Under the pieces are notes generated by a model. The model searched no databases and was not told the origin of the DNA. It saw only the letters and a program-made list of their open reading frames with translations. Below, one piece after another: positions 34,362 to 45,658 of a stretch of 64,000 nt of DNA. Position numbers and translations under genes: made by a program. Position 1 is the first letter of the stretch. The number at the start of each line of letters is the position of its first letter. Source of the DNA: Sneathiella sp. (GTDB taxonomy: Bacteria; Pseudomonadota; Alphaproteobacteria; Sneathiellales; Sneathiellaceae); the NCBI GenBank assembly GCA_017643685.1, contig JAEPMY010000004.1, positions 1 to 64,000 of the forward strand. Direction: 5' to 3'.

Positions 34362-35126
34362 TCAATCGTTGGACTTGAACAAATTCTCAAAGTTCTTGAC
34401 CGCCTCTGCTTTCTCGCGATCTTTATCATCGTCAGAGCTCTTGCGCGAACCAAATACGGCTTCGGCTTCGGCCATCGGATCATATTCTTCTTCCTGCTGC
34501 ATTTCCTGCTTCTTGCGCTCATAAGCAGTCAAAGGAACAGAAGCGGCATCCGCGGCAACTGCTGCGGCAACTTCTTCCATCAGCTTATCCGTATTGTCTT
34601 CATCCCGAAGGTGAGCAGACTTCCGAACAACCTCATCCAGCTCCATCTGCGTACAGATGCCAAGACTAACTGGATCCCGAGGCTTAATGGCCTGTGTATT
34701 CCAGTGCGTCTTGTCCCGAACGGCGTTGATGGTTGTTTTGGTCGTACCCACCAGTTTACCGATTTGCGCATCCGACAGTTCCGGATGAAATTTCAAGAGC
34801 CAGGAAATCGCATCAGGACGGTCTCCACGACGTGACACCGGTGTGTAACGGCCACCACGGCGACGTGGCTGCGGGACATCTGCAACTGGCGTGCTAAGCT
34901 GAAGGCGAGCCGCCGGGTCTTTCTCACAGCGGCTGATTTCTTCCTGAGTAATCTGGCCTGAGGCAATCGGGCTTTGGCCAACAATACCTACGGCGACCTC
35001 ACCATCAGCGATCCCTTGCACTTCCAAGCTGTGCAGGCCGCAAAAAGCAGCGATCTGATGAAATGTCAGGCCCGTATTATCAATCAACCAAACGGCGGTT
35101 GCTTTTGGCATCAATGGTGTTGCCAT
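34362..35126 (-). CDS. trcR: DUF1013 / TrcR family cell-cycle transcriptional regulator
   Basis: MATPLMPKATAVWLIDNTGLTFHQIAAFCGLHSLEVQGIADGEVAVGIVGQSPIASGQLT-type sequence characteristic of DUF1013. Confidence 0.88.
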   Translation of the reverse strand: MATPLMPKATAVWLIDNTGLTFHQIAAFCGLHSLEVQGIADGEVAVGIVGQSPIASGQITQEEISRCEKDPAARLQLSTPVADVPQPRRRGGRYTPVSRRGDRPDAISWLLKFHPELSDAQIGKLVGTTKTTINAVRDKTHWNTQAIKPRDPVSLGICTQMELDEVVRKSAHLRDEDNTDKLMEEVAAAVAADAASVPLTAYERKKQEMQQEEEYDPMAEAEAVFGSRKSSDDDKDREKAEAVKNFENLFKSND

Positions 35127-36360: not shown

Positions 36361-36543
36361 ATGGCAAGTGACGAGGATGATTTTCCGATTCTGACTAATC
36401 AGGGGAAAAGCTTAGGCGATATGTCTATTGAGGAGCTAAATGAGTATATTGCATCCCTTAAGTCAGAGATAAACAAAGTAGAAAATGTCATCAACACGAA
36501 AAAATCGGCCAAATCCGCCGCTGATGACATTTTTAAATCCTAA
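36361..36543 (+). CDS. DUF1192 family small protein
   Basis: MASDEDDFPILTNQGKSLGDMSIEELNEYIASLKSEINKVENVI; start trimmed from ORF track. Confidence 0.8.
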   Translation: MASDEDDFPILTNQGKSLGDMSIEELNEYIASLKSEINKVENVINTKKSAKSAADDIFKS

Positions 36544-36626
36544 ATAAAAACAATTACTTGGGTATTGGGGTGTAATTACAGCAAGCATTCACAGTAATAC
36601 ATGGCATTATTTTTTATATACGTTAA

Positions 36627-36654
36627 TTGTAATTTAAGAAAATGCCCCTAAATT
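36627..36654 (+). promoter_or_regulatory. candidate promoter of dispersed CCUCCC sRNA
   Basis: TTGTAA-16 nt-TAAATT. Confidence 0.45.
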
Positions 36655-36660
36655 AATCAG

Positions 36661-36754
36661 TATCAGCCCGCGTCGGGCTGTCGATTGGAACCTTTCCAAT
36701 CTATTTGACGCCTCCCTGTTGACTTGAGCCGCCCACTTAGGCGGCTCTTTTTTT
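36661..36754 (+). ncRNA. candidate trans-acting sRNA (copy D): two hairpins, CCTCCCTGTT, intrinsic terminator
   Basis: CAGCCCG-CGT-CGGGCTG; GATTGG-AACCTTT-CCAATC; CCTCCCTGTT 36711-36720; terminator GAGCCGCC-CACTTA-GGCGGCTC-TTTTTTT. Shares CCTCCCTGTT-n(1-2)-ACTT-terminator with copies B and C. Confidence 0.75.
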
Positions 36755-37037
36755 GTCTGAATTTGTCAAGCAATGTTTTTTAACTTTACGTTACTAAATA
36801 ATGACATTCTCATCTTGACTTATGCACGTTTTCAGAGTTTTATTCATGCAACAGGTCAAGTTTGACAGGTTGAGGTATCAAAATAGAAGGGGGCGCTGAT
36901 AACTCGGCAGCCCCCTCATTTGTTTCTGCTACGTTATCTCTTTTCCACTTATTTCATGTGGATTCAGGCTGGACCAAATCGGTCCTGCAAGGTAGCTTTC
37001 CGCGCATAATTCAAAAAGTGTGAAGGGGAGCTGCTGA

Positions 37038-38354
37038 ATGGCCGATCCAAATTTTCTGAAATTCGATACATTAAGTCTGCATGCAGGCCAACGCCCAGAT
37101 CCTGTAACCGGGTCCCGCGCTGTGCCGATTTATCAGACGACCTCTTACGTGTTTCGGGATGCGGATCACGCGGCATCCCTATTTAACCTGGAAACAACCG
37201 GCCACATCTACAGCCGCCTCTCCAATCCAACGGTCGCTGTTCTGGAAGAGCGCCTTGCAAGCCTTGAGGGTGGTGTTGGTGCGATTTGCACAGCATCCGG
37301 GCACGCCGCTTTACACCTTGCTATCGTGACATTGATGAGTGCGGGCAATCATATCGTTTGCTCCCAATCTGTTTACGGTGGCACCTATAACTTCTTAAAA
37401 CACACAATGCCGCGTTTTGGCATTGAGACGACTTTTGTAAATCCTAGAGATCTGGACGCATTTAAAGACGCGATCAAGGAAGAAACGCGACTAGTCATTT
37501 CTGAAACCCTCGGCAATCCGGGGCTGGAAGTAACGAACATTCAGAAAGTCGCAGATATCGCCCATGCGGCAGATATTCCGCTGATGATCGATAACACATT
37601 CGCAACACCGTATCTGTGTCGCCCACTTGATCACGGCGCGGATTTGGTCATGCATTCGGCGACTAAATTCCTTGGTGGTCATGGGATTGCAATGGGCGGC
37701 ACTCTGATCGATGGCGGGCGTTTTGATTGGGAAAAAAGCGGGAAATTCCCAACGATGACCGAACCGTATGAGGGCTATCATGGCATTCAGTATGAAGAGG
37801 AGTTTGGCCCCCTCGCGTTCTTGATGCGTGCCCGTACGGAGGGCCTTCGTGACTTTGGCGCCTGCCTCAGCCCAACCAATGCTTTCCAGATTTTGCAAGG
37901 CGTCGAAACCCTCTCCATCCGCATGGAAAAACACGTGGCGAACGCTCGTAAAGTGATTGAGTTTCTTGCCTCGAACGACGCTGTTGAAAGTGTCTCTTCC
38001 CCTGAGCTAGAAAGTCACCTTGATCATGAACTTGCAAAAGAGCTCCTACCAAAGGGCTGCGGCTCTATTTTTAGCTTCACTGTAAAAGGTGGCCGCGAAG
38101 CGGGTAAGGCCTTTATCAGCCAGCTACAGGTTTTCTCCCACCTTGCCAATGTAGGAGATGCAAAAAGCCTGGTCATTCACCCGGCATCCACCACACACCA
38201 ACAAATGGACAAAGAGGCCTTGGAGAATGCAGGTATTTCTGAAGGCATGATCCGCCTTTCTGTTGGCATCGAAGACGTAGATGACTTGATCAAAGATCTT
38301 AAAGGTGGCTTACGCGCAGCTGCAAAAGTTGCTGAAAAAGCAGCAGCGGCTTAA
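37038..38354 (+). CDS. metY: O-acetylhomoserine aminocarboxypropyltransferase (sulfhydrylase)
   Basis: Cys/Met metabolism PLP family, LSLHAGQRPDPVTGSRAVPIYQTTSYVF, HSATKFLGGHG. Confidence 0.9.
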   Translation: MADPNFLKFDTLSLHAGQRPDPVTGSRAVPIYQTTSYVFRDADHAASLFNLETTGHIYSRLSNPTVAVLEERLASLEGGVGAICTASGHAALHLAIVTLMSAGNHIVCSQSVYGGTYNFLKHTMPRFGIETTFVNPRDLDAFKDAIKEETRLVISETLGNPGLEVTNIQKVADIAHAADIPLMIDNTFATPYLCRPLDHGADLVMHSATKFLGGHGIAMGGTLIDGGRFDWEKSGKFPTMTEPYEGYHGIQYEEEFGPLAFLMRARTEGLRDFGACLSPTNAFQILQGVETLSIRMEKHVANARKVIEFLASNDAVESVSSPELESHLDHELAKELLPKGCGSIFSFTVKGGREAGKAFISQLQVFSHLANVGDAKSLVIHPASTTHQQMDKEALENAGISEGMIRLSVGIEDVDDLIKDLKGGLRAAAKVAEKAAAA

Positions 38355-43853: not shown

Positions 43854-43981
43854 CGTTTCCCATCCAAATTATCAGCGCCCTCTGGAAATTGCTGTCACAA
43901 ACGACTAACCTATGCGTTTATAGGGAGTTACAGAATAACAGAGGGCGCTAAAAAACGCCTGATCAAGGGAACAGGGACGGG

Positions 43982-44872
43982 ATGGATTGGGACAAATTGC
44001 GCATCTTCCATGCGGTCGCAGAAGCTGGCAGTTTTACACATGCTGGTGAAACTCTACATTTGAGTCAGTCTGCTGTAAGCAGGCAGATCAGTGCATTGGA
44101 AGAGAGCCTGAAGCTACCTCTTTTTCATCGACATGCACGTGGTCTACTGCTGACAGAGCAGGGGGAACTCCTGTACCGAACCGCGCATGAGATTTTTGCA
44201 AAGCTGGCCATGACAGAGGCCATGCTGGCCGATTCCAAAGAAAAGCCAACTGGCGAGATCAAAGTTACCTCAACTGTCGGGCTTGGCTCTAACTGGCTGA
44301 CCCCCCGGATCCGTGAATTTGTTGAATTATATCCAGATATCCGCGTTAATCTTATTCTGGCCGACCGGGAACTGGACCTCAGTATGCGGGAGGCAGATGT
44401 TGCTATTCGGCTCCGCCAACCTGTGCAGCCAGACCTGATTCAGCGAAAACTGGCAACCGTTCGGCACCACTTATACGCATCTGTTGAGTATGTCGAAAGA
44501 TATGGCGCACCTGCGTCACTTGAGGATCTACTGCAGCGGAATATTTTGATTTATGGTGACGAGGCACCCTCCAATATCGCCAATATCAACTGGATTATCG
44601 ATATCCTTAAAGAAATGGATCCGAACATTACCCCTGTTTTCAAGGTGAACAACGTCTACGGGTTGCTTCTTGCCATTCAAAGCGGACTTGGTATTGGAAG
44701 CCTCCCCGACTACATCACTGAGGGTCACAAGAATCTGGTGCGCGTCCTTCCAGAGGTGGAAGGGCCTGAGTTTGACACCTATTATGTCTATCCAGAAGAG
44801 CTCCGGAAATCTAAGCGTGTCACTATTTTTAGAGACTTTTTGATCCGAAAAGTGTCCGAGTCCAATTTTTAG
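43982..44872 (+). CDS. lsrB: LysR-family regulator of the LsrB/VtlR type
   Basis: MDWDKLRIFHAVAEAGSFTHAGETLHLSQSAVSRQISALEESLKLPLFHRHARGLLLTEQGELLYRTAHEI; sequence and trxB adjacency match the rhizobial LsrB/VtlR group. Confidence 0.82.
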   Translation: MDWDKLRIFHAVAEAGSFTHAGETLHLSQSAVSRQISALEESLKLPLFHRHARGLLLTEQGELLYRTAHEIFAKLAMTEAMLADSKEKPTGEIKVTSTVGLGSNWLTPRIREFVELYPDIRVNLILADRELDLSMREADVAIRLRQPVQPDLIQRKLATVRHHLYASVEYVERYGAPASLEDLLQRNILIYGDEAPSNIANINWIIDILKEMDPNITPVFKVNNVYGLLLAIQSGLGIGSLPDYITEGHKNLVRVLPEVEGPEFDTYYVYPEELRKSKRVTIFRDFLIRKVSESNF

Positions 44873-44993: not shown

Positions 44994-45157
44994 TTGTGCA
45001 AAGCAATAGACGCACAACTGGTTTTCCCAACAACCTCCCTTCTGTTGGTGAAATAGCTGTTTTGTTTCTCCCAGGCAAAACGGCCTTCATGTGAATAACA
45101 TGAAACTCCCTGTTAGTAGGCCAGCCTTCTCCCCCTCAAGGCTGGCCTTTACTTTTT
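44994..45157 (+). ncRNA. candidate AbcR-like sRNA A
   Basis: Hairpins TTGTGC/GCACAA; CCAACA-aCCTCCCttc-TGTTGG; GCTGTTTTG-tttCTCCCagg-CAAAACGGC; TTCATGT-GAATA-ACATGAA; CTCCCTGTTA 45106-45115; terminator GGCCAGCCTT-CTCCCCCTC-AAGGCTGGCC-TTTACTTTTT. 5' end inferred. Confidence 0.8.
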
Positions 45158-45237
45158 CCAGCTCTTTGAAAAACCTAGACTTGTTTGACGCACATCTATT
45201 CTTGCACTGCGTAATTTGCATGCTCTCGCCTTACGCT

Positions 45238-45252
45238 ATGCGTTAAGCGCAT
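45238..45252 (+). promoter_or_regulatory. LysR-type dyad upstream of sRNA B
   Basis: ATGCG-TTAAG-CGCAT (T-N11-A); GCTATGC[A/G]T[G/T]AAGCGCATG shared with the copy A element; 53 nt from candidate -10 TATATT 45298-45303. Confidence 0.6.
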
Positions 45253-45308
45253 GGGTGCACTGCAAAATATATGCTGGATAAAAGAAAGGCATTTGCCTAT
45301 ATTCCAAT

Positions 45309-45461
45309 CATCAACGCTGCACCGCAGCATTGATCGAATATCGACCCCCCTTATCGATATTCCGTTACTTGTTTTCCTCCCAGATACAAGTAACCGTATC
45401 ATCTTAGGATGATATACCTCCCTGTTAGACTTACCAGCCTCTTACGAGGCTGGTTTTTTTT
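45309..45461 (+). ncRNA. candidate AbcR-like sRNA B
   Basis: Hairpins ATCAAcGCTGC-ACC-GCAGCaTTGAT; GAATATCGA-CCCCCCTTA-TCGATATTC; GTTACTTGT-tttCCTCCCagat-ACAAGTAAC; TATCATC-TTAG-GATGATA; CCTCCCTGTT 45417-45426; terminator CCAGCCTC-TTAC-GAGGCTGG-T8. Confidence 0.85.
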
Positions 45462-45465
45462 GGCC

Positions 45466-45480
45466 ATGTTCAGGGCGCAT
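45466..45480 (+). promoter_or_regulatory. partial LysR-type dyad upstream of sRNA C
   Basis: ATGT-TCAGGGC-GCAT; 52 nt from candidate -10 TATCTG 45525-45530. Confidence 0.45.
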
Positions 45481-45535
45481 AGCAGATATTCCAGATTATG
45501 GGTTTAACAAAGATCGAGAGAGCATATCTGTAAGG

Positions 45536-45658
45536 TGTTCCGATGACCTCCCTATTTTATTGGAACAGCGGCCATGTTCCCTGTAAGGCCGCAGCCAACT
45601 TTGTTGGCAAACCTCCCTGTTAAACTTGCCGGCCTTTTAAAGGCCGGCGTTTTTTTTT
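45536..45658 (+). ncRNA. candidate AbcR-like sRNA C
   Basis: Hairpins TGTTCCGAT-gaCCTCCCtatttt-ATTGGAACA; GCGGCC-atgttCCCTGTaa-GGCCGC; GCCAAC-TTT-GTTGGC; CCTCCCTGTT 45612-45621; terminator GCCGGCC-TTTTAAA-GGCCGGC-G-T9. Confidence 0.85.

Follow-up and report, generated by a model that had tools for sequence, protein, structure and literature searches.

Few CtrA-controlled base-pairing small RNAs (sRNAs) have been characterised, the main case being CcnA in Caulobacter. CcnA of Caulobacter crescentus has a CtrA-box promoter, a C-rich element that acts on G-rich ribosome-binding sites and a cell-cycle role, with the ctrA and gcrA mRNAs among its targets; it is 182 nt long, lies within the replication origin and carries a CCCC loop (PMC8959179). 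A homologue in Sinorhizobium was not clearly detected by its authors (PMC8959179). Other alphaproteobacterial sRNAs with related features are AbcR1 and AbcR2, Hfq-type RNAs with a C-rich anti-Shine-Dalgarno motif that adjoin lsrB and are driven by LsrB or RpoH1 (PMC8844928, PMC5461406), and EcpR1, which has a cell-cycle role, lies downstream of pleD/divK and uses a GC-rich loop seed and a ppGpp-dependent sigma-70 promoter (PMC4414408). In SorX and SorY of Rhodobacter (RF02784 and RF02651), a CCUCCCUGUU motif is followed by a terminator.

We analysed a window of 64,000 nt from Sneathiella sp., in which a sequence-only reading had described an sRNA-like element. By its match to the covariance model of Rfam family RF02356, this element is the Sneathiella orthologue of BjrC1505, an alphaproteobacterial sRNA family that is known but functionally uncharacterised. 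It resembles CcnA in its CtrA-box promoter, its C-rich motif suited to G-rich ribosome-binding sites and its predicted cell-cycle role, and differs from it in its inferred length of ∼94 nt and its CCUCCC seed, with no homology shown between the two. A C-rich anti-Shine-Dalgarno motif and a probable Hfq-type character are shared with AbcR1 and AbcR2; however, the Sneathiella sRNA has a CtrA box and lies in a trcR-rcdA-type region, and not beside lsrB. A LysR gene of the window (43952-44869) adjoins instead a separate array of sRNA-like units, considered below. The likeness to EcpR1 is that of an alphaproteobacterial sRNA with a cell-cycle role, here a predicted one, but position, seed and promoter differ, and the neighbours in the window are trcR, an oxidoreductase gene, a DUF1192 gene and metY, not pleD or divK. 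The element has the motif and terminator arrangement of SorX and SorY, whose models scored 26.8 and 30.4 bits against it, below their cutoffs of 46.6 and 111, respectively.

The RF02356 model matched positions 36626-36754 over its full length (1-140 of 140) with 67.5 bits, compared to a gathering cutoff of 50, and this was the only copy found in the Sneathiella sp. genome. The BjrC1505 layout of two hairpins, a GACGCCUCCCUGUU linker and a terminator is present in the element, and its three stems and seed correspond to those of the family; the stem sequences and the 5' segment diverge, but nothing essential differs. The anatomy proposed earlier, with hairpins, a C-rich motif and a terminator followed by T7, was borne out by the sequence, by a terminator scan and by the predicted fold of the 94-nt strand (-38.5 kcal/mol, z = -5.72), as stable as which was none of 200 shuffled sequences. 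The proposal of an sRNA with a CCUCCC motif was likewise borne out. The coordinates of the features are collected in the table.

Table. Features of the BjrC1505 locus in the Sneathiella sp. window and of neighbouring genes.
Feature	Position	Strand	Basis
trcR, transcriptional cell cycle regulator	34362..35126	-	PF06242, E 3.5e-63
DUF1192 gene, upstream	36361..36543	+	PF06698, E 2.4e-14
CtrA box TTAA-N7-TTAA, GTTAATTGTAATTTAA / TTAATTGTAATTTAA, overlapping the -35 position	36623..36637	+	exact match
Plausible -10 element TAAATT, 26 nt from box start	36649..36654	+	sequence, family consensus
Predicted mature sRNA, BjrC1505 family, ∼92-94 nt	36661..36754	+	RF02356 full-length match, fold z; 5' end inferred
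Hairpin 1, CAGCCCG/CGGGCTG	36664..36680	+	predicted fold
Hairpin 2, GATTGGAA/TTCCAATC (GATTGG/CCAATC)	36683..36701	+	predicted fold
Putative anti-Shine-Dalgarno seed TTTGACGCCTCCCTGTT	36704..36720	+	conservation in 47 loci
TTTGACGCCTCCCTGTTGACTTG between hairpin 2 and terminator	36704-36726	+	sequence
Predicted intrinsic terminator GAGCCGCC/GGCGGCTC + T7, GC-rich, probable Hfq tail	36726..36754	+	predicted fold, terminator scan
metY-like Cys/Met metabolism gene, downstream	37038..38354	+	PF01053, E 7.5e-136

BjrC1505 was found in 24 of the 26 genomes of the order and, under stricter filters, in 45 of 387 genomes across the class. Three genomes (G026, G201 and G340) gave two RF02356 matches each, and the pair in G340 was arranged in tandem, ∼200 nt apart. 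A stem could be formed at the place of hairpin 1 in 86/86 representatives with ∼56 different stem sequences, at that of hairpin 2 in 84/86 with ∼45 (GAGTGG/CCACTC in most Rhizobiales), and at that of the terminator in 86/86. The best stem was chosen for each sequence and no null model was applied, so that the diversity of sequences in the three stems supports, but does not prove, covariation. In 47 loci, nearly all of them retrieved with the covariance model, conservation was 91-100% at every position of the extended seed TGACGCCTCCCTGTT. Loci L002-L119 were retrieved with a pattern that contains the seed, and are therefore uninformative on seed conservation; they do provide independent evidence for the flanks upstream and downstream. 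CCUCCC lies in a weak loop of the predicted fold, and by analogy to other anti-Shine-Dalgarno RNAs we infer that the conserved GACGCCUCCCUGUU seed blocks Shine-Dalgarno sequences.

Upstream of the inferred transcription start (∼36661-36663) lies the CtrA box, which together with the preceding G reads TTAA-N7-TTAAC on the opposite strand. A generic sigma-70 scan found no promoter at the element on the + strand. The promoter suggested earlier, TTGTAA-N16-TAAATT, stands in part: the element does appear to have a promoter of its own and TAAATT is a plausible -10, but the supposed -35, TTGTAA, is part of the CtrA box. Alignment of the family on the box gave a consensus in which a TA-rich -10 begins 26 nt past the box start, a spacing that places the 5' end of the box at about -39 from the inferred start. 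In Caulobacter, a full CtrA motif at -39 activates and one at -14 represses (PMC4287350), and by this rule the position of the Sneathiella box suits activation by CtrA. Activation is read here from the position of the box, and CtrA boxes can also mediate repression.

The box was exact in 24 of 24 Sneathiella loci, in which the flanking sequence was variable. Among 86 non-redundant relatives (<75% mutual identity), searched in a window from -110 to -60 of CCTCCC, 43 had an exact box compared to 0.36 expected from shuffles, and 81 matched it with no more than one mismatch, compared to 4.8 expected. Half-site spacings other than 7 occurred in at most 4 of the 86, and members of the Bradyrhizobium type showed the variant TTTA-N7-TTAA. 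Five of six control windows contained at most 1/86 exact boxes; the sixth (+60 to +110) contained 7, because a second box precedes rcdA. This second TTAA-N7-TTAA box was found between the sRNA terminator and rcdA in 26 loci (L015, L018 and L114 among them), 60-107 nt past the motif, mainly in Phyllobacteriaceae and Brucella plus L166. One further match of this kind, in L094, lay at +119 after CCTCCC. The genome encodes a CtrA orthologue (G000:C155:7450-8139) with 77% identity to Caulobacter CtrA, and an Hfq gene was also found in it; no clear CtrA orthologue was seen in three sRNA-carrying genomes (G120, G201 and G401), possibly owing to assembly gaps. Taken together, the comparative evidence strongly predicts that CtrA activates the sRNA promoter.

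A same-strand DUF1192 gene lies upstream of the sRNA in 108/149 loci. In the window ∼118 nt separate its stop codon from the inferred 5' end of the sRNA, with no terminator between, as would be expected if the RNA were a fragment of the DUF1192 mRNA 3' UTR processed by RNase E. This origin was the one that the sequence-only reading had set against its own proposal, coupled to a C-rich tract that is not conserved. The tract is conserved, however, and the sRNA persists in the 41 loci without an upstream DUF1192 gene; in 39 of these the CtrA box (at most one mismatch) is also in place. We therefore consider a 3' UTR origin highly improbable, although read-through from DUF1192 may contribute to the sRNA. 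What is retained throughout is the unit of CtrA box, sRNA and terminator. In G047, a genome without an RF02356 match, the region upstream of rcdA contains a box, CCTCCCTGTA and a terminator.

Downstream, rcdA (PF07323, DUF1465), the gene of an adaptor for CtrA degradation, is the first gene on the same strand in 107 of 117 non-Sneathiella loci, or in 107/141 of all loci with enough downstream sequence. The oxidoreductase gene and trcR (a protein labelled DUF1013 and identified as TrcR) lie upstream in many loci, and the ancestral order seems to have been trcR, oxidoreductase, DUF1192, sRNA and rcdA. The location upstream of metY is thus incidental, as metY follows the sRNA in only part of Sneathiella and other genes do so elsewhere in the genus. 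The usual position directly upstream of rcdA, in the same direction, would also fit a 5' leader (attenuator) of rcdA that yields the short RNA as a by-product and persists in Sneathiella as a relic after rcdA had moved. In the four Sneathiella genomes measured (G002, G003, G006 and G016), 42-46 kb separate rcdA from the sRNA, and in the six genomes parsed the 300 nt upstream of rcdA contained no exact CtrA box. Box and sRNA nevertheless stay together, with seed, hairpins and terminator kept in 24 loci, and in 26 loci the second box separates the sRNA terminator from rcdA. A leader function is therefore quite unlikely.

The window contains three further sRNA-like units with a CUCCC motif, arranged in tandem at 45080-45656 (+) beside the LysR gene, a position that matches that of AbcR1/2 in S. 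meliloti. The element had been described as a fourth, dispersed copy of this array, which would make it a paralogue of AbcR type within the same stress and transport regulon. The CCTCCCTGTT sequence occurs three times in the window compared to 0.13 expected, namely in the element and in array copies B and C, and in all three it is accompanied by ACTT and a terminator. Element and array are also both weakly similar to the SorX/SorY models (the best model for the array units, SorX, gave 25-34 bits, below the same 46.6 cutoff), and start regions of livH in seven Sneathiella genomes fit the shared seed. However, the element reaches the RF02356 cutoff whereas no array copy exceeds 19.7 bits with this model, and the element has a single C-rich motif and a conserved GACG extension of its own. 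The neighbourhoods differ as well, and no CtrA box of this kind was found upstream of the array copies. The element is therefore not a fourth array copy and belongs to a separate, old family; we regard a common origin and regulon with the array as unlikely. The suggestion that its regulon differs from that of the array is probably correct, and CtrA can now be named as the candidate regulator.

We consider it likely, though short of certain, that the element is a stand-alone BjrC1505 sRNA gene activated by CtrA, probably dependent on Hfq and with a translation-blocking seed of CCUCCC type. CtrA~P would bind the TTAA-N7-TTAA box in place of a -35 element and drive the sRNA. The sRNA level should consequently rise and fall with CtrA activity during the cell cycle, with synthesis in the CtrA-high phase. 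Transcription would end at the sRNA's own terminator, with a U-tail that should bind Hfq, and the exposed GACGCCUCCCUGUU would pair with ribosome-binding sites of GGGAGG type and block translation of several mRNAs. These later steps, namely Hfq binding and blocking of GGGAGG sites by the seed, are inferred by analogy to characterised anti-Shine-Dalgarno sRNAs. The CtrA box and the usual adjacency to rcdA predict a cell-cycle-controlled RNA regulator.

Duplexes between the seed and candidate mRNAs were compared with those of start regions in the window (median -14.1, 5th percentile -25 kcal/mol). The best seed duplexes with ctrA were ordinary (-13.9 to -18.4 kcal/mol in six genomes of the window's family, L169-L173 and L175), and those with gcrA (-9 to -19 kcal/mol in the six genomes parsed) were no better than with ordinary genes, so that the Sneathiella sRNA, unlike CcnA, shows no good pairing with these two mRNAs. 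Neither rcdA in Sneathiella (-12 to -17.5 kcal/mol) nor metY (-18.1 kcal/mol) stood out. A conserved target among cell-cycle mRNAs did not emerge, as the start regions of ctrA, gcrA and rcdA pair like those of ordinary genes. An exact 12-mer target, AACAGGGAGGCG, had few matches besides the sRNA among the rows listed, and these were at differing places between genomes. The cheR gene beside ctrA carries CAGGGAGG in its start region (-25.1 kcal/mol), and no cheR match to that pattern was seen among the loci read from the other searched genomes. The best-fitting candidate was livH, with -33 kcal/mol in two close species and -20 to -26 in five others (start regions L301-L307, all Sneathiella), where the Shine-Dalgarno regions fit the CUCCC seed. 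Since the core of this seed is also present in the array RNAs, livH cannot be assigned to BjrC1505, and it is a candidate target of the BjrC1505 sRNA, the array RNAs or both.

Through this comparison, an as yet uncharacterised Rfam family gains a specific regulator candidate and a cell-cycle neighbourhood formed by trcR and rcdA. The RNA family itself is known; a link of BjrC1505 to CtrA and rcdA was not found in the literature searched, which did not take in the original family description, and an earlier mention is possible. A wider proposal, which we hold only tentatively and think somewhat less probable than its opposite, is that the CtrA cell-cycle circuit includes BjrC1505 as an RNA arm, broadly conserved across Rhizobiales and several further orders of Alphaproteobacteria. 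CtrA~P would turn on the sRNA and also rcdA, which often adjoins it, and while CtrA is high the translation of a set of mRNAs, with transport genes such as livH as candidates, would be reduced. The rcdA promoter region of S. meliloti is bound by CtrA, but rcdA expression does not respond to CtrA depletion there (PMC4433202). If S. meliloti has the sRNA, binding of CtrA at an adjacent sRNA promoter may account for this.

The leader before metY contains a GC-rich hairpin (GGGGGCGCTG ... CAGCCCCC) at 36888-36920 (+). No other Rfam match was obtained in the region at E<=1, and the hairpin is possibly a separate control element of metY.
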